From Deltaproteobacteria bacterium (GTDB lineage Bacteria; Desulfobacterota; Desulfomonilia; UBA1062), in the NCBI GenBank assembly GCA_029552245.1, contig JAKPDW010000049.1, forward strand, positions 1 to 45,634: a DNA stretch of 45,634 bases. Reading direction: 5' to 3'. A program made the translations under genes and the position numbers. The number at the start of each line of letters is the position of its first letter. Position 1 is the first letter of the stretch. Under the pieces are notes generated by a model, which saw only the letters and a program-made list of their open reading frames with translations, did no database searches and was not told the origin of the DNA. Positions 3,071 through 11,422 of the stretch are shown one piece after another.

Positions 3071-4651
3071 ATGGATCGGAAAGACCCCGGAAGGCCATGC
3101 CATGCATGCAGGACACTTGTCGTGCGGGCAACCATCGTGCTTGCGGCACTTACGCTGTGCGTGTCGTTCCTTGTGGCACCCGACGCACACGCCGCCTGGA
3201 GCGACGACCCGTACGTGAACACCCTCGTGACCGGGATCGGTACGCCCTGCAGGCCCCAGGTGATCAACTCGGGCAGCGGGTTCATCGTGATATGGCGGAA
3301 CGATAACGCCCCCTTGGGCATCTACGCGCAGCGCTACAACTCCCAGGGAGACCCCACGTGGGGAGAAGGGGTCACGATCACGACCTGGGATGCCTGGCAG
3401 AACGAGATGGTGCCCGACGGGCAAGGCGGCGCGGTGGTGGAGTGGACGTCGGATGACGGGATCTACGCCCAGCGCATCGACAGGGACGGGAACCTCCAGT
3501 GGGGGGAGGACGGGGTCCTGGTCCTCGAGGGCGAAGAAGACGGCTGGATAGCCCCTGACGGCGAGGGCGGCGCCTACATCATGTCCATTGACGGGCACGT
3601 CCAGCGCGTCACCGCTGACGGGAGACTTGCCTGGGAGGATCCTGTCTTCTACCCAGTTCTTGAATCCGAAGTCTGGTCAGCTCCGAAGATCGCGAGCGAC
3701 GGCGAAGGCGGCGCCATCCTCGTGTGGATAGAGGGCTGGGGCAACAACCTGGCTGTCCAGCGCATCGACAGCGACGGCAACCTGCTCTGGAACGGCGGCC
3801 TCCCGGTGTACCTGGGAGAAGACGCCTACTGCCCCAGGCTGGTGACCGCCAGCGACGGCGGCGCGGTCGTCATTTGGGTAAGCACTGACAATAGCACCAT
3901 CTTTGCCCAAAAGGTGGGCCTGGACGGCGAGCCTCTCTGGAACGGGGGGGATGGGTTAGTGCTTGACGCATCGATGGGGTGGATCAACGGCGCATTCATC
4001 GACCTCGCATCGGACGAGGAAGGTGGGGCCTTCGTGACCTGGTATGACTGGCCTGACGGAATGAATGGGTCCGGGTTTGCCCAGCACGTGGACGCATCCG
4101 GGGTGAAGACGTGGGGCTCCCCGGTGATGTTCACCTCTCTTGATGGTTTCAGAGAGGTATCACAGCACCCACGCAAGACCGTGGAGGACGGAAGGGGCGG
4201 GTTCATCGCCGCGTGGGAAGGCCCTGACGAGTGCATCATGGCACAGCGCGTGGACAAGCACGGCACGCTCCTGTGGGGGGATGGGGGCGTGGTCGTCTCC
4301 TATGGCGAAAGCATAGAATACGGGCCCCGCCTGGCCTCCGGGGGCCCAGGGATACCGGGGGGAGCGATCGCCGTGTGGGTCGACCCCCGGGTCACGGTCA
4401 AGGCTCCAGACTCCCAGAATGTCTACATGCAGAACATCAACGCCGACGGATCGCTGGGGGTGCTCCCTGGAGAAGAGGAGGAGGACTCCTACGAGGGCGT
4501 CTCCTCCAAGGGAGACGATGACGACAGGATCATGGGCGTCAAGTGCTTCATCGAGTCGGCTTCCCCGGGATCGCACGCGCCTGCGGTCTTGTCGGCCGTC
4601 CTCCTGCTCTCGGCGCTTATCGGCGTATCTCTCAGGAGAAAGCCTGACTGA
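3071..4651 (+). CDS. Secreted propeller-like repeat protein with C-terminal membrane tail
   Basis: A 526-residue protein with an N-terminal signal peptide ending near AHA-AW (about residue 42) and about eight degenerate repeats. Each repeat carries an AQR-(I/V)-D-x-DG-x-L-x-W core, separated by DGxGGA-x-x-x-W segments, as in beta-propeller-like extracellular proteins. The C-terminus has an acidic linker (EEEEDS), a CFIESA box at residues 492-497, a hydrophobic helix of about 19 residues and a final RRKPD. This resembles tripartite sorting signals (Cys-containing CTERM or CFI-box tails). The ATG at 3071 follows GGAGG with five bases spacing. It is monocistronic: a promoter lies in front and a strong terminator behind. 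Function is unknown; an adhesive or ligand-binding surface protein is a guess. Confidence 0.8.
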   Translation: MDRKDPGRPCHACRTLVVRATIVLAALTLCVSFLVAPDAHAAWSDDPYVNTLVTGIGTPCRPQVINSGSGFIVIWRNDNAPLGIYAQRYNSQGDPTWGEGVTITTWDAWQNEMVPDGQGGAVVEWTSDDGIYAQRIDRDGNLQWGEDGVLVLEGEEDGWIAPDGEGGAYIMSIDGHVQRVTADGRLAWEDPVFYPVLESEVWSAPKIASDGEGGAILVWIEGWGNNLAVQRIDSDGNLLWNGGLPVYLGEDAYCPRLVTASDGGAVVIWVSTDNSTIFAQKVGLDGEPLWNGGDGLVLDASMGWINGAFIDLASDEEGGAFVTWYDWPDGMNGSGFAQHVDASGVKTWGSPVMFTSLDGFREVSQHPRKTVEDGRGGFIAAWEGPDECIMAQRVDKHGTLLWGDGGVVVSYGESIEYGPRLASGGPGIPGGAIAVWVDPRVTVKAPDSQNVYMQNINADGSLGVLPGEEEEDSYEGVSSKGDDDDRIMGVKCFIESASPGSHAPAVLSAVLLLSALIGVSLRRKPD

Positions 4652-5567: not shown

Positions 5568-6770
5568 ATGGAGAGGAGAGACTTCCTGAAAGCGCTGGCC
5601 GGGGTGTCCGTTGCGGCCGCCTGCCCGCTCGGGTCGAGGGCGAGAGCTGCACGTTGCGCCCCCGACAGGCAAGCCGCCCTCAAGAAAGGCGCCGATCAGA
5701 AGGTATACCTTGCCGGGGTGAAGGCCGGGGCGTCGGATGAGGAGCTGAAGGTCGCGGTGCGCCAGGCGGCCCTTGCGGCCACCGACTTTTCCTGGCTGTC
5801 CAGGGGCGACACCGTGTTCGTCAAGCCGGCGGTCAACTCGTCGAACCCCTACCCGGCCACCACCTGCCCGGCGGCCCTGGCGGCCATGGTCGAACTCCTC
5901 AAGGACAAGGGCGCAGGCAGGGTGATCTGCGGCGACATGTCCGGGGTCGAACACGTGAGGTTCACCCGGGAAGGGATATCAGGCAGCTCGCGCAGGCTCA
6001 TGGAGTCGTGCGGCATAGCCGGTGCCGCCCTCGCCGCGGGGGCGGAGCTGCATTTCTTCGAGGAGCAGGGGTGGGACGCCTTCCACGAGGAGGCCCCGGC
6101 CGAGGGTTCACACTGGAAGCACGGCCTGATGATGCCCGACATCCTCAGGGAAGTCCAGCACATCGTACTCATGCCGCGCTGCGGCAGCCACGTGCTCGCA
6201 GGGAGCACCCTGGGCATGAAGGCCGCGGTCGGGTACTGGCGGCACGATACGCGCCTCGAGTACCACCGCGACGCGGCGACGTTCCACCAGAAGACCGCGG
6301 AAGGGAACACCGTGGAAAGCCTGAGGACGAAGCAGAGGCTCGTGGTCACCTGCGGCCACAAGGTGCTCGCCACGTTCGGCCCTGACGAGGGGTATGTCAT
6401 GGAGCCGCAAAACGGCCTCGTGATCGCCTCCGAGTCCATTGTCGCGCACGACATGGTGTCGCTCGCCTGGCTCCTCGAGAACAGGCGCCTCATGCCGGAT
6501 TCCGAAAAGGGATCCTTCATGGACACCAGTCCCTTCGTCGCCTGGATAGGCAACCGCATGGTCGTCACCTGGCTGGGCGGGCTCGGCCAGGGCATCCTCT
6601 CCGACGGGTTCGCCAAGCAGCCCGCAGACTCCGTCTGGGACGACCCCGTCCTCGCGAGGGCCTACGAGCTCTTCGGGGGCGTTCCCGGCGTCGTGCTCGA
6701 GACGGCCAACGCCGCTGTCGATGACGGCCTGAAAAAGCGGCTCGAGGAGATGACCGCCCTGCCCTCCTGA
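5568..6770 (+). CDS. DUF362 family protein with Tat signal
   Basis: A 400-residue protein. It begins MERRDFLK, an (E)RRxFLK twin-arginine motif at residues 3-8, followed by an alanine-rich hydrophobic stretch, so export by the Tat route in folded form is likely. The body has the DUF362 pattern: an early V-x-VKPAVN segment, LLKDKGAGRVICGDMSG, and a central segment with LMPRCGSHV and a GMK-like G-x-KAAVGYW. DUF362 proteins often carry ferredoxin clusters, but no CxxC series is visible, so a cofactor role is uncertain. The start at 5568 is chosen over an in-frame ATG at 5478 because GGGAGGGGG ends two bases before it and the Tat motif follows at once. Biochemical role unknown. Confidence 0.85.
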   Translation: MERRDFLKALAGVSVAAACPLGSRARAARCAPDRQAALKKGADQKVYLAGVKAGASDEELKVAVRQAALAATDFSWLSRGDTVFVKPAVNSSNPYPATTCPAALAAMVELLKDKGAGRVICGDMSGVEHVRFTREGISGSSRRLMESCGIAGAALAAGAELHFFEEQGWDAFHEEAPAEGSHWKHGLMMPDILREVQHIVLMPRCGSHVLAGSTLGMKAAVGYWRHDTRLEYHRDAATFHQKTAEGNTVESLRTKQRLVVTCGHKVLATFGPDEGYVMEPQNGLVIASESIVAHDMVSLAWLLENRRLMPDSEKGSFMDTSPFVAWIGNRMVVTWLGGLGQGILSDGFAKQPADSVWDDPVLARAYELFGGVPGVVLETANAAVDDGLKKRLEEMTALPS

Positions 6771-6939
6771 CGTGCACAGTCTTCAGGCCGGGCTCCCAGG
6801 GCGCAGGCCATGCAGGACGGCCGCCTTGCCTGGGGCGGCGCAGGCATCGGGCGGCCGCTTGCGTGGGGAACCCCTCGGCCGTGTTGACACGCAGCCGCCG
6901 CAGGGGTATCAGGGTGAAAAACGCGGAGGTCAGCCAGCC

Positions 6940-7380
6940 ATGATCGTTTGCATGAGAAACCGAACCCTTGCCGCCCTCGTCTGTCTGCACATGGTCTTCT
7001 TGGCCACCTCCCCCGCCTTCGCCTCGCTCGTGCCCTCCGTGGACTCCCAGGGCAATACGCACCGTAGCATCGAAGACATGAAGACCATCGAGAAGGCCCT
7101 GGAGATGAAGATCGTCCAGGAAAAGCTCAGGGCGTACGGCCTGGACGCCCAGGAAGTGAAGGCCAAGCTCTCGTCCATGAGCCCCACCCAGATCCACACC
7201 CTCGCGCGCGCCTGCGACGACGTGCTCGCAGGGGGCGACAGCGGGCTCGGGGTGGTGATCGCCCTCTTGGTCATCGTGATCCTCGTCATCATCATCCTGA
7301 AACTCCTCAACAAGGAGATCATCATCAGGATGAGCGACCGTGACGGCCCTGCTGTCCATACTGGCCATCCTGTTTGCTGA
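6940..7380 (+). CDS. PA2779-family small membrane protein
   Basis: A 146-residue protein. An N-terminal signal-like helix ends near ATSPAFA-S. A charged helical region contains LEMKIVQEKLRAYGLD and MSPTQIHTLA. The AGGDSG motif precedes one strong transmembrane helix (about residues 103-122) and a short tail. This is the layout of the PA2779 family, which occurs next to PA2778-type cysteine peptidases. GGAGGT at 6925-6930 places the start at 6940 rather than at the ATG at 6952. The 3' end overlaps the next gene by 41 bases in another frame. The last 20 or so residues lie in the overlap and look unconstrained. The family's function is unknown; a partner or substrate of the adjacent peptidase is an inference. 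Confidence 0.8.
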   Translation: MIVCMRNRTLAALVCLHMVFLATSPAFASLVPSVDSQGNTHRSIEDMKTIEKALEMKIVQEKLRAYGLDAQEVKAKLSSMSPTQIHTLARACDDVLAGGDSGLGVVIALLVIVILVIIILKLLNKEIIIRMSDRDGPAVHTGHPVC

Positions 7381-7876
7381 GGCGCCGCAGGCCTTCGTCG
7401 ACGGGGTGCCGTTCATCCGGCAGGATCCCCGCCTGTGCGGGCCCGCGGCGCTCGCCTCGGTCCTCGCCTATTACGGCCTTGCGGTCGACCAGAAGGCCAT
7501 CGCGGACTTCGCCTACACGGAAAAGCTCGGGGGCGCGCTCATGACCGACCTCGAGAACTACGCGCGCAGCCTCGGGTGCCGGACGCACCTCGCGCAGGGC
7601 ACCTCGGAAGACCTCATCGACGCCCTGGGGAAAGGCAGGCCGGTCGTCGCGCTCGTGGACCTCGGCTTCTGGGTGTTCTCCAGGCCGCACTACGTGGTGG
7701 TCACCGGGTGGGGCCCAGGCGGCGTCCGTGCCCATACGGGGACCGAGGCCGACAAGGTGTTCCCGAAAGAGGAGTTCGAGAGGATATGGCGGAAAAGGGG
7801 CTCCGTATACTTGCTCGTGCTGCCGCCCTCGCCCTGGCCGGGGCCTGCTGCGCCTGCACCGCCCTCGGGATCGTGA
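7340..7876 (+). CDS. C39-like cysteine peptidase (PA2778-type peptidase half)
   Basis: A 178-residue protein starting at a GTG. It has a short hydrophobic leader ending near EAPQA and then the double-glycine-peptidase-like core: VPFIRQ, the catalytic cysteine in LCGPAALAS (Cys33), a GKGRPVVALVD strand and the catalytic histidine in RPHYVVVTGW (His117). The Asp expected about 16 residues after the histidine in C39 enzymes is not seen (the local sequence is RAHTG), so activity or the catalytic acid is uncertain. In PA2778 homologues the peptidase is fused to a TPR region. Here the peptidase stops at 7876 and the TPR part is read in another frame from 7786. Likely periplasmic or membrane-anchored. 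Confidence 0.8.
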   Translation: MTALLSILAILFAEAPQAFVDGVPFIRQDPRLCGPAALASVLAYYGLAVDQKAIADFAYTEKLGGALMTDLENYARSLGCRTHLAQGTSEDLIDALGKGRPVVALVDLGFWVFSRPHYVVVTGWGPGGVRAHTGTEADKVFPKEEFERIWRKRGSVYLLVLPPSPWPGPAAPAPPSGS

Positions 7877-8265
7877 CCATGGGCGACCCACTGGGCGCCC
7901 GCGAGCACCTCGACCTGGGCCTGAGCTACGAGCTCACAGGCGACCTCGCCGGGGCCCGGCGGGAGTATCTGAGGGCCGCATCGCTCGATCCATCCTGGGC
8001 GACGCCCTGGTTCAACCTCGGCAACCTCTCCTACGCGAGCGGCGACCTCGCCTCCGCAGAGAAGCACTACGAAGAGGCGCTCAGGAGGAACGCGGACGAC
8101 CCGGACGTTCTCAACAACCTGGCGCTCACCAAGCACGGCCTGGGAAAAGACGAAGAGGCCCTGGCGCTGGTGCGCAGGGCGCTGTCCATGAGGGAATGCC
8201 CCGCATACCTGGATACCCTCGGCACCATCGAGCGGGCGATGAAACCCGAAGGAGGCACGCCGTGA
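7786..8265 (+). CDS. TPR-repeat lipoprotein-like protein (PA2778-type TPR half)
   Basis: A 159-residue protein. The N-terminus MAEKGLRILARAAALALAGACC is a basic-hydrophobic-Cys pattern typical of a lipoprotein signal, although the lipobox LAGAC is imperfect. About three tetratricopeptide repeats follow from residue 38, with cores LSYELTGDLAGARREYLRA, NLSYASGDLASAEKHYEEA and NLALTKHGLGKDEEALALV. The start at 7786 lies inside the peptidase gene, so 91 bases are read in two frames. GAGAGG just upstream may serve as the ribosome binding site. The stop TGA overlaps the GTG start of the next gene. A peptide-binding scaffold working with the peptidase is inferred. Confidence 0.78.
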   Translation: MAEKGLRILARAAALALAGACCACTALGIVTMGDPLGAREHLDLGLSYELTGDLAGARREYLRAASLDPSWATPWFNLGNLSYASGDLASAEKHYEEALRRNADDPDVLNNLALTKHGLGKDEEALALVRRALSMRECPAYLDTLGTIERAMKPEGGTP

Positions 8266-9077
8266 TCGGCGCGATAACCGGGGACGTCATCGGTTCGGTG
8301 TACGAGTGGAGACGCATCAAGACCAAGGATTTCCCCCTGTTCACCCCCAAGAGCCGCTTCACAGACGACACGGTGCTCACGGTTGCGCTCGCCGAGGCGA
8401 TCCTGGAGGGCGCCGACTACCCCGACCTCATGCGGCGGTATTACCACCGCCACCCGAACGCGGGGTACGGCGGCATGTTCAGGCGGTGGGCGCTCGATCC
8501 CCAGGCCGCGCCCTACCACAGTTTCGGAAACGGCGCCGCCATGAGGATCGCCCCTGCAGCCTACGCCTCCCGCACGCTGGAAGAAGCGCTCGAGAAGGCC
8601 GCGCACTTCACCTCGTGCACGCACGACCACCCCGAGGGGATAAAAGGCGCGCAGGCCACCGCGGCAGCAGTGTTCATGGCCAGAAGCGGCGCGTCGAGGG
8701 AGTCCATCAAGTCGTTCGTGGAGGACACGTTCGGGTACGACCTGTCGCGGACGCTGGAGGAGATTAGGCCGCACTACCGGTTCGACCCCACCTGCCAGGG
8801 CAGCGTCCCCGAGGCGATCACGGCGTTCCTCGAGTCGACGAGCTACGAGGACGCCGTGCGGAACGCGGTCTCCCTGGGAGGGGACAGCGACACGCTGGCC
8901 TGCATGACGGGTGCCATGGCGGAGGCGTTCTACGGCGGCGTTCCGGAGGAGACGGCCCGCAGGGCCCTCGGCCTGCTCACGGACGATCTCCTCGGGGTGA
9001 CGGTGCGCTTTGTCGGGGAAGTCATGGTTCCCGGCGGCCACCGGTGGTACCCGTGGCTCTTGTCCCTCCCGCGCTGA
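8262..9077 (+). CDS. ADP-ribosylglycohydrolase (ARH/DraG family)
   Basis: A 271-residue cytoplasmic enzyme predicted to remove ADP-ribose from modified macromolecules. It has the family metal-binding motifs: GAITGDVIGS at the N-terminus, FTDDT around residues 33-37, FGNGAAMRIAP, and GGDSDTLACMTGAMAEAFYG near the C-terminus with two metal-ligand aspartates. It starts at a GTG whose GTGA overlaps the TPR gene stop, with GGAGG at 8251-8255, so it is translationally coupled to the cassette upstream. Length is normal for compact bacterial members. No ADP-ribosyltransferase is visible nearby, so the modified target is unknown. Confidence 0.92.
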   Translation: MIGAITGDVIGSVYEWRRIKTKDFPLFTPKSRFTDDTVLTVALAEAILEGADYPDLMRRYYHRHPNAGYGGMFRRWALDPQAAPYHSFGNGAAMRIAPAAYASRTLEEALEKAAHFTSCTHDHPEGIKGAQATAAAVFMARSGASRESIKSFVEDTFGYDLSRTLEEIRPHYRFDPTCQGSVPEAITAFLESTSYEDAVRNAVSLGGDSDTLACMTGAMAEAFYGGVPEETARRALGLLTDDLLGVTVRFVGEVMVPGGHRWYPWLLSLPR

Positions 9078-9490
9078 GCGCCGCAAGCGGCCCTGCGCAG
9101 CCGGTTTGAGGCGCCGGTTCCCTTCGGGGCCGCCTTCATCGGGTCCGCACGTTGGGACGGGGATCCCCCGCACCGCCATCTTCCCTGTCCCGGCGGGGAT
9201 CGAGGCCGGCATGAACCCTATCCGCCGGCGCGAGGTCGCACCCGCAAGCCCGGGACTGGCACGCCCACGAGACGGGGGTGAACCCACAAGCTGCGGCGTC
9301 CCGCCCCCCATGCAGGTCATCGAGTGCCGCCAAAGGCGGCCCCGCCCCCGGCCCAGGCGATGAAGCGGCCCAAGAAGACCATGCGCGATCCTCCCCATCC
9401 CCCTTCTGGATCCTTGCATCGCCGTGGGTTCTGGGCTACTCTTTCCTCGAGCCGCTCACCTTGGGAATCCCGCACCTTTTTACAAACTTT
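9078..9490. other. Non-coding spacer before mscL
   Basis: About 410 bases without a supported gene, RNA or terminator. Sequence is GC-rich up to about 9470, then becomes AT-rich (a run of T around 9477-9483) just before the mscL ribosome binding site. Confidence 0.45.
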
Positions 9491-9504
9491 TAGGAGGTAC
9501 CGGC

Positions 9505-9903
9505 ATGGGCATGATCAAGGAGTTCAAGGAATTCGCGATGAGGGGCAACGTGGTGGACATGGCGGTGGGCATCATCATCGGCGCCGCGTTCGGCAAGATC
9601 GTGTCATCGCTGGTGGCGGACGTCATCATGCCGCCCATCGGGGTGCTCTTAGGCGGCGTGGACTTCACCGACCTCGCCATCACCCTCAAGGCCGCATCCG
9701 ACCAGGCGGCGGCTGTGACCCTGAACTACGGCAAGTTCATACAGACCGTGGTGGACTTCCTCATCATAGCCTTCGCCATCTTCCTGCTCGTCAAGGGCAT
9801 CAACGCGTTCAAGCGCAAGGAAGAGGAGAAGCCCGCAGAACCCACCAAGGAAGTGGTCCTGCTCACCGAGATCAGGGACCTGCTCGGACAGCAGCGGAAA
9901 TGA
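9505..9903 (+). CDS. mscL: Large-conductance mechanosensitive channel
   Basis: A 132-residue inner-membrane channel that opens under membrane tension and releases solutes on hypo-osmotic shock. The N-terminal amphipathic helix [18 protein letters not shown] and TM1 [16 protein letters not shown] are canonical. A periplasmic loop, TM2 ([18 protein letters not shown]) and a charged cytoplasmic helix ending in [12 protein letters not shown] follow. TAGGAGGT at 9491-9498 fixes the start at 9505. Length is standard for MscL. Confidence 0.97.
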
Positions 9904-10081
9904 CAGGGGATCGCAAAGGCCAGTGGGGGGGGACCCCCTCTGCCGAGCCCATGGACGCCGGGGACACCCGGGGGCGCACGGCACGGCCCCGGGGGCCTGA
10001 CCGTGTGCACCTCAGAGAAGCCCCTTGGGTGAAGGGCAGGGACATGGACACGCCTTCTCGTTTTGGGGTATGGAGGGGAAC

Positions 10082-10546
10082 ATGCCCGTAACCGTGGAAC
10101 CATGGCATTGGCTCGTCTTCGGCATGGCCCTGCTCATCGCGGAGCTCTTCGCGGGGAGCATGGTGCTCCTCTGGTTCGGCCTGTCAGCCCTTGTGATCGC
10201 GATCCTCGTCTTCCTGGCGCCGGCTTTGGGGCTCACGTGGCAGCTTCTGGCCTGGGCGGTGTGCTCGGGCCTGCTCACCGTGCTCTGGTTCCTCTTCCTG
10301 AGGCCCAAGATGGCGGACAGGACGAAGGCCGGGGCAGGTTACGAGGCGCTGGTGGGCGAGACGGGCATCGTGGCGAGTCTCCGTCCCGGCGAGTCGAGGG
10401 GGACCCTCCGCTTCCCTCTGCCCATCATGGGATCCGACGAGTGGCCCTTCGTCTCGGAGGCCGAGCTCTCTCCCGGGGACAGGGTCGTGGTCGTGGACGT
10501 CTCGGGCAACACCCTCGTGGTCAAGAAGGCCACCCGGCCAGGATAA
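10082..10546 (+). CDS. NfeD family membrane protein
   Basis: A 154-residue protein with two to three transmembrane segments in the first 80 residues, followed by a soluble OB-fold-like domain (ALVGETGIVAS near its start, VVDVSGNTLVVKK at its end). This is the short NfeD type that pairs with SPFH/stomatin proteins; the gene ends 18 bases before an SPFH gene. The start at 10082 has GGAGGGG upstream (10072-10078). An in-frame ATG at 10025 would add 19 low-complexity residues and is less likely. The pair is thought to organise membrane microdomains or membrane quality control. Confidence 0.88.
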   Translation: MPVTVEPWHWLVFGMALLIAELFAGSMVLLWFGLSALVIAILVFLAPALGLTWQLLAWAVCSGLLTVLWFLFLRPKMADRTKAGAGYEALVGETGIVASLRPGESRGTLRFPLPIMGSDEWPFVSEAELSPGDRVVVVDVSGNTLVVKKATRPG

Positions 10547-10564
10547 CAGAACAAGGAGGCCCGT

Positions 10565-11422
10565 ATGTCGGGACTGTTCGTGGTTGCGGTCTTCGTCCTG
10601 CTCATTCTCGTCACACTCTTTCTGGGCGTGAGGATCGTGCCCCAGGGCAGCAAGCACGTGGTGCAGAGGCTCGGAAAGTACCACACAACCCTCGGACCCG
10701 GCCTGAACCTCATCATCCCCTACATCGACACGGTCGCGTACAAGGTCACCACCAAGGACATCGTCCTGGACATCCCCTCCCAGGAGGTCATCACCAAGGA
10801 CAACGCGGTGATCGTGGTGAACGCCGTGGCCTACATCAACATCATCTCTCCCGAGAAGGCGGTCTACGGCGTGGAGGACTACCGCGTCGCCATCCAGAAC
10901 CTGGTGCAGACATCGCTCAGGTCCATCATCGGCGAGATGAACCTGGACGACGCCCTGTCGTCGCGGGAGAAGATCAAGGCCCGGCTCAAGGAGAGCATCT
11001 CGGACGACATCGCGGACTGGGGGATCATGCTCAAGACCGTGGAGATCCAGGACATCAGCCCTTCCGACACCATGCAGAAGGCGATGGAGGAGCAGGCTGC
11101 GGCCGAGAGGGCCCGCAGGGCGACGGTGACCAGGGCCGAGGGGGAGAAGGCTGCGGCCATCCTCCAGGCCGAGGGCCGCATGGAGGCGAGCAAGCTCGAC
11201 GCGCGCGCCAAGGTCGTGCTCGCCGAGGGCGACCAGATCGCCATCACCAAGATCGCCGAGGCCGTGCAGGCGAACGAGCTCCCCGTGATGTTCATCCTCG
11301 GAGGCAGGTACATCGACGCCATGAGGAACCTGTCGGAGTCGTCGAACGCGAAGTTCGTGGTGCTGCCTGCGGATATCGCATCGGCCCTCAAGGGCATGCT
11401 CGGGGGATCGCAAGGCTCATGA
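10565..11422 (+). CDS. SPFH/stomatin-like protein (paraslipin type)
   Basis: A 285-residue protein. It has one N-terminal membrane helix (about residues 3-22), then the SPFH core (VPQGSKHVVQRLGKY, QEVITKDNAVIVV, and a LRSIIGEMNLDD motif). A long alanine/glutamate-rich coiled coil follows (EEQAAAERARRATVTRAEGE). AAGGAGG precedes the ATG. The stop TGA overlaps the ATG of the next gene (ATGA), indicating one transcript with the YkgJ-ArsN2 fusion. Acts as an oligomeric membrane scaffold with NfeD. Confidence 0.93.
   Translation: MSGLFVVAVFVLLILVTLFLGVRIVPQGSKHVVQRLGKYHTTLGPGLNLIIPYIDTVAYKVTTKDIVLDIPSQEVITKDNAVIVVNAVAYINIISPEKAVYGVEDYRVAIQNLVQTSLRSIIGEMNLDDALSSREKIKARLKESISDDIADWGIMLKTVEIQDISPSDTMQKAMEEQAAAERARRATVTRAEGEKAAAILQAEGRMEASKLDARAKVVLAEGDQIAITKIAEAVQANELPVMFILGGRYIDAMRNLSESSNAKFVVLPADIASALKGMLGGSQGS

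Follow-up and report, generated by a model that had tools for sequence, protein, structure and literature searches.

Four overlapping genes of a member of the Deltaproteobacteria, which encode a PA2779-family protein, a C39-like cysteine peptidase, a TPR protein and an ADP-ribosylhydrolase (ARH), form a genuine operon-like array, yet they do not constitute a conserved new system. The array lies in a 45,634-nucleotide contig (hereafter the window) of a 3.27-Mb assembly (G000). We consider it probable that the array contains two independent units within one operon: an envelope unit of PA2779, C39 and TPR proteins, within which PA2779 would be cleaved, and a cytoplasmic ARH carried along as a passenger. 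This reading is built on observations of gene content, gene overlaps, distribution, a syntenic locus that lacks ARH, the catalytic residues and the position of a GG/GA motif in PA2779.

Results

Four Overlapping Genes in an Operon-Like Array

The open reading frames of the array are all on the forward strand and overlap in succession by 41, 91 and 4 bases (Table 1), in agreement with the first-pass annotation of this DNA. The GTG start codon of the ARH gene is preceded by a Shine-Dalgarno-like AAGGAGG located inside the TPR gene. A scan of positions 6600-9700 revealed no sigma-70-like promoter and no forward-strand terminator-like site, which is weak evidence. The array is flanked upstream by a gene for a DUF362 protein and downstream by genes for MscL, an NfeD-like protein and an SPFH protein.

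Table 1. Features of the array, in window positions
Feature	Position	Strand	Basis
PA2779-family (DUF6627) protein, 146 aa; proposed substrate	6940..7380	+	NF033919 85.6 bits, PF20332 47.5 bits, hydropathy
Gly98-Gly99 of PA2779 (LAGG/DSGLG), proposed C39 cleavage site	7231..7236	+	alignment of 116 members
PA2779 predicted transmembrane helix VVIALLVIVILVIIILKLL	7252..7308	+	mean hydropathy 3.62
C39-like cysteine peptidase, N-terminal half of split PA2778	7340..7876	+	PF13529, PF03412, NF033920 positions 3-154
TPR protein, C-terminal half of split PA2778	7786..8265	+	TPR models, NF033920 positions 167-253
GTGA stop/start overlap, TPR-ARH junction	8262..8265	+	AAGGAGG upstream; GTGA identical in G004
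ADP-ribosylhydrolase (ARH/DraG fold family), lineage-specific addition	8262..9077	+	PF03747 133 bits, conserved catalytic residues

That the genes are coupled, as had been proposed, is upheld by a second genome of the same genus (G004): the order of the four genes there is unchanged, the first two again share 41 bases, and the GTGA overlap is likewise present. Because the gene order and both overlaps recur in G004, the arrangement is not the chance product of one genome, and the ARH gene does not adjoin the cassette in this genome only, the circumstance under which the idea was to have been given up.

Elsewhere in the window, positions 3071-4651 encode an exported-looking protein of 526 amino acids with no Pfam or NCBIfam match, whose C-terminus, with a Cys followed by a hydrophobic helix and the tail Arg-Arg-Lys, resembles a C-terminal sorting signal.

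The PA2779 Protein and a PA2778 in Two Genes

The assignment of the first three genes to the PA2779/PA2778 pair was borne out by matches to NF033919, NF033920 and PF13529. The product of the first gene scores above the curated NF033919 cut-off of 40 bits and is thus a PA2779-family member. Its N-terminus (TSPAFA/S) is signal-peptide-like; a helical region, the sequence AGGD and a single very hydrophobic helix follow, and the tail is basic. This topology was judged by eye and from hydropathy with no dedicated predictor, the signal peptide by eye.

The product of the second gene has a hydrophobic N-terminus, matches PF13529 with 51.2 bits, and displays, next to a PA2779 gene as in PA2778, the C39 catalytic Cys (Cys33, 7436-7438) and His (His117, 7688-7690). 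Among 88-89 C39 homologues these residues are conserved in 100% (Cys), 100% (His) and, for the Gln, 98%, and the position after the His at which the usual third catalytic Asp would stand is occupied by His or Asn. The TPR protein is, judging from its N-terminus and those of its orthologs, a probable lipoprotein, with a lipobox that is clear in G004 and in G002 (also of this genus) and weak, with no consensus match, in G000. As the C39 and TPR proteins cover successive parts of NF033920 (with 92.5 and 44.3 bits, respectively), they represent one PA2778-type protein in two genes. Neither half reaches the 150 bits demanded of a single protein, and by their profile matches the two genes are a PA2778-like pair and not a PA2778 member under the NF033920 rule.

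Compared with the known PA2779/PA2778 pair (NF033919, NF033920, DUF6627), the present genes are alike in identity, order, exported-looking N-termini, C39 plus TPR content and a GG/GA before the helix. They differ in the ARH gene at the 3' end, seen in two species, and in the division of PA2778 into two overlapping genes. The divided form is in the majority in the phylum sample: where both C39 and TPR could be seen at a PA2779 locus (83 loci, for example L078, L080, L214-L217, L219-L221, L225 and L226), they were split in 70 cases and fused in 13. In the library searched we found no literature on the function of PA2779, PA2778 or DUF6627. A paper on BswR merely terms PA2779 hypothetical and divergent from bswR (PMC3985676), and one on P. 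stutzeri lists a PA2779-family gene as a promoter candidate (PMC10155442).

A Candidate Cleavage Site at the Edge of the Membrane

The C39 peptidases of export systems cleave after GG, GA or GS. In PA2779, Gly98-Gly99 stands five residues N-terminal to the predicted membrane helix, and an alignment of 116 members revealed that the residues before the helix are G in 90%, then G in 79% or A in 13%, then D in 71% or N in 12%. Two genomes (G072 and G338) have tandem PA2779 copies 5' of a single C39 gene, and close pairs of PA2779 genes occur in several gammaproteobacterial genomes as well. Nine genomes harbor a PA2779 copy apart from C39 together with a PA2779-C39 locus elsewhere in the genome, and seven genomes with PA2779 have no C39 gene close to any copy. 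Extra copies, whether tandem or dispersed, fit a substrate role for PA2779, with one peptidase acting on several substrates. On the basis of the position of the GG/GA, and of one enzyme occurring with several small partners, we propose that PA2779 is cut by C39 at the edge of the membrane.

In the proposed scheme, PA2779 would be exported by means of its signal peptide and anchored by its single C-terminal helix. With the help of the TPR lipoprotein, a C39 peptidase in the periplasm would then cleave PA2779 after the Gly-Gly/Ala, at the helix's outer edge, so that a peptide of about 70 residues would be released into the periplasm. The export topology, the cleavage and the released peptide are predictions from the protein sequences. 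The resemblance to ComA and PCAT, transporters that remove double-glycine leaders, extends to the C39 family, the Cys/His/Gln residues and a candidate GG/GA site, whereas the C39 protein considered here has no ABC transporter, looks exported rather than cytoplasmic, and has its candidate site ahead of a C-terminal helix instead of after an N-terminal leader. Among solved structures its top match, made by sequence only, has an E value of 0.003. PA2779/PA2778 may, at somewhat less than even odds, be a case of double-glycine processing without a transporter.

A different reading, to which we also give somewhat less than an even chance, is that PA2779 is not a substrate and that the C39-like and TPR proteins serve as a scaffold or act on some other envelope protein. 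The departure from the usual Asp at the third catalytic position speaks for it, as do the genomes in which PA2779 has no C39 nearby. A structural role for the GG/GA, as a cap ahead of the helix, would likewise weaken the case for cleavage. The strict conservation of Cys, His and Gln in C39 and the conserved position of the GG/GA speak against the scaffold reading; the placement of the GG/GA directly before the helix together with the invariant Cys and His would favor cleavage.

A Putative Cytoplasmic ADP-Ribosylhydrolase

Identification of the fourth gene product as an ADP-ribosylhydrolase family member stands: it exceeds the PF03747 cut-off of 26.2 bits and retains the catalytic residues E15, T34-D35-D36, H121, D208, D210 and T211. 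Aligned with human ARH3, it matches in the catalytic Glu, in the two metal motifs (TDDT and GGDxDT) and in the TH motif, but the protein belongs to a short subfamily of about 260 amino acids and, with 44.8 bits against the 337 set for the TIGR02662 equivalog, it falls far short of the DraG cut-off. It has no N-terminal hydrophobic segment usable for export and is therefore most likely cytoplasmic, which would put the membrane between ARH and the proposed PA2779/C39/TPR reaction. A cytoplasmic function for ARH would follow from this probable location.

The ARH proteins of G000 and G004 are 69% identical, and the values of dN (0.24) and dS (1.18) indicate purifying selection. In a tree of ARH sequences the two are sisters with a support of 0.99, which fits a single joining event, and their nearest relatives include proteins from other phyla. 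The G000 genome has three more ARH genes (L001-L003, at C2:65879-66682, C63:94033-94857 and C69:99680-100480), of which the last contains one in-frame TGA.

Pairing of ARH with PA2779 Is Confined to One Genus in the Genomes Sampled

Within the genus, G002 has the genes for PA2779, C39, TPR, MscL, NfeD and SPFH in order and lacks ARH, with about 100 bases from the TPR stop codon to the MscL start codon (locus L066, 1455-1553, minus strand). No ARH ortholog was found elsewhere in the G002 genome, which is 86% complete. By pairwise identity G002 is nearer to G004 than G000 is; the root of the three-species tree, which bears on whether ARH was lost in G002 or gained in G000/G004, has a support of 57, too low to decide between the two. 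G001 has a lone, diverged PA2779 gene (L065, 613-1008), and a search of its genome for genes of the C39_2 family gave none; no PA2779 was found in G003. The order of the MscL, NfeD-like and SPFH genes 3' of the cassette (window 9490-11422) is common to G000, G002 and G004.

For the phylum, we scanned the fetched flanks of 116 PA2779 loci from 101 genomes for ARH; at least 1.8 kb of downstream sequence was in view at 103 of these loci, and 77 had 4 kb or more on each side. ARH was present at two loci, those of G000 and G004, and in the fetched flanks of none of the other 114. C39 lies downstream of PA2779 at 85 of the 103 loci with enough sequence. In a sample of 369 genomes of the Gammaproteobacteria, the class of a Litchfieldella genome, PA2779 occurs in 90 (about 105 loci) and ARH is detectable with the query ARH in 46, and a comparison of contigs and coordinates disclosed no ARH adjacent to any of those roughly 105 loci. 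Conversely, at 80 loci of the nearest relatives of ARH, drawn from many phyla, neither PA2779 nor C39 was found in flanks of up to 6 kb, and PA2779 scored above the cut-off in only five of 49 genomes with an ARH relative. Of the genomes sampled from two large bacterial groups, roughly a quarter carry PA2779/PA2778 itself.

Taken together, the phylum, gammaproteobacterial and ARH-relative counts make the pairing a property of one genus in these samples. The linkage count that had been called for thus turned out negative outside the genus, and on the locus counts in these samples we reject a conserved PA2779-ARH system.

Transferase Partners and ARG-Centred Systems

The search for an ADP-ribosyltransferase, also called for earlier, yielded none. 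A search for DarT had no match and its control worked; searches for DraT and for the exotoxin-type transferase ADPrib_exo_Tox (PF03496) likewise had no match but, being run without a positive control, prove little. No partner was therefore found for a DraT/DraG or a DarT pairing. PADLOC gave no match to known defence proteins.

ARG-centred repair/defence systems were proposed in 2022 (PMC9503650). As in those systems, the ARH here was found with no paired transferase, and relatives of its subfamily, in cyanobacteria and others, adjoin genes for NrtR (Nudix plus winged helix), PP2C phosphatase and ARPP-1. In contrast, the flanks of ARH in the window are TPR, MscL, NfeD and SPFH genes, and it has beside it neither a regulator gene of the Nudix or WYL type nor one for a phosphatase, a chaperone or an ARPP. 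NrtR-type regulators near ARH relatives come mostly from cyanobacteria (L169:4344-5093, with Nudix and winged helix confirmed, and L123, L124, L165, L176 and L181). Several of the ARH relatives also have a nicotinamidase-like hydrolase nearby (for example L189:4820-5935), a label that comes from reading the sequence, Pfam having given no match at the threshold used.

Discussion

The first-pass annotation had envisaged a single system in which an exported peptide would be processed and an ADP-ribose mark reversed. Our results do not support it: ARH occurs at two of 116 loci and is absent from the syntenic locus of G002, it has no export segment, none of the 80 loci of its relatives is paired with the peptidase unit, and no DarT was found. 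We favor instead two independent units. The second would be a cytoplasmic ADP-ribosylhydrolase of a widely but patchily distributed subfamily, which would have joined the 3' end of the PA2779/C39/TPR unit once in the genus, would subsequently have gained translational coupling, and would be retained by purifying selection with no part in how that unit works. One point against a pure passenger, which need not behave in this way, is that ARH stayed coupled even though the TPR proteins of G000 and G004 have fallen to 50% identity.

One refinement of the two-unit reading, rather than its opposite, is that ARH belongs on its own to the ARG-centred repair/defence group, reverses ADP-ribosylation by outside enzymes and uses the operon merely to be expressed. 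The NrtR, PP2C and ARPP-1 genes beside its relatives, which resemble the partners described (PMC9503650), and the failure to find a transferase with ARH lend this idea some credit, but none of those partners adjoins ARH in the window and PADLOC returned no match; we hold it to be possible, though at less than even odds.

It is improbable, in our estimation, that ARH is a working partner in a functional extension specific to the genus, for example one that removes ADP-ribose from a cytoplasmic form or from a factor in control of the unit. Two species do share the order and the GTGA overlap despite a 31% difference between their ARHs, and ARH is under purifying selection; against this, G002 has the unit with neither ARH nor an ortholog, sequence features place ARH and the unit on opposite sides of the membrane, and no candidate transferase came to light, two of the searches being without a positive control.

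With two independent units as the preferred reading, a tempting but unsupported functional connection of ADP-ribosylation to an envelope peptidase is removed, and the better lead would seem to be the cleavage model for the first unit rather than ARH. We suggest, with some reserve, that PA2779/PA2778 may be an envelope system of wide occurrence whose C39 peptidase, once exported, would cut membrane-anchored PA2779 at GG/GA to free a peptide, ARH having been added in one genus. The uncharacterized PA2779/PA2778 pair is thereby reduced to a concrete question: is PA2779 cut by the peptidase at GG/GA?
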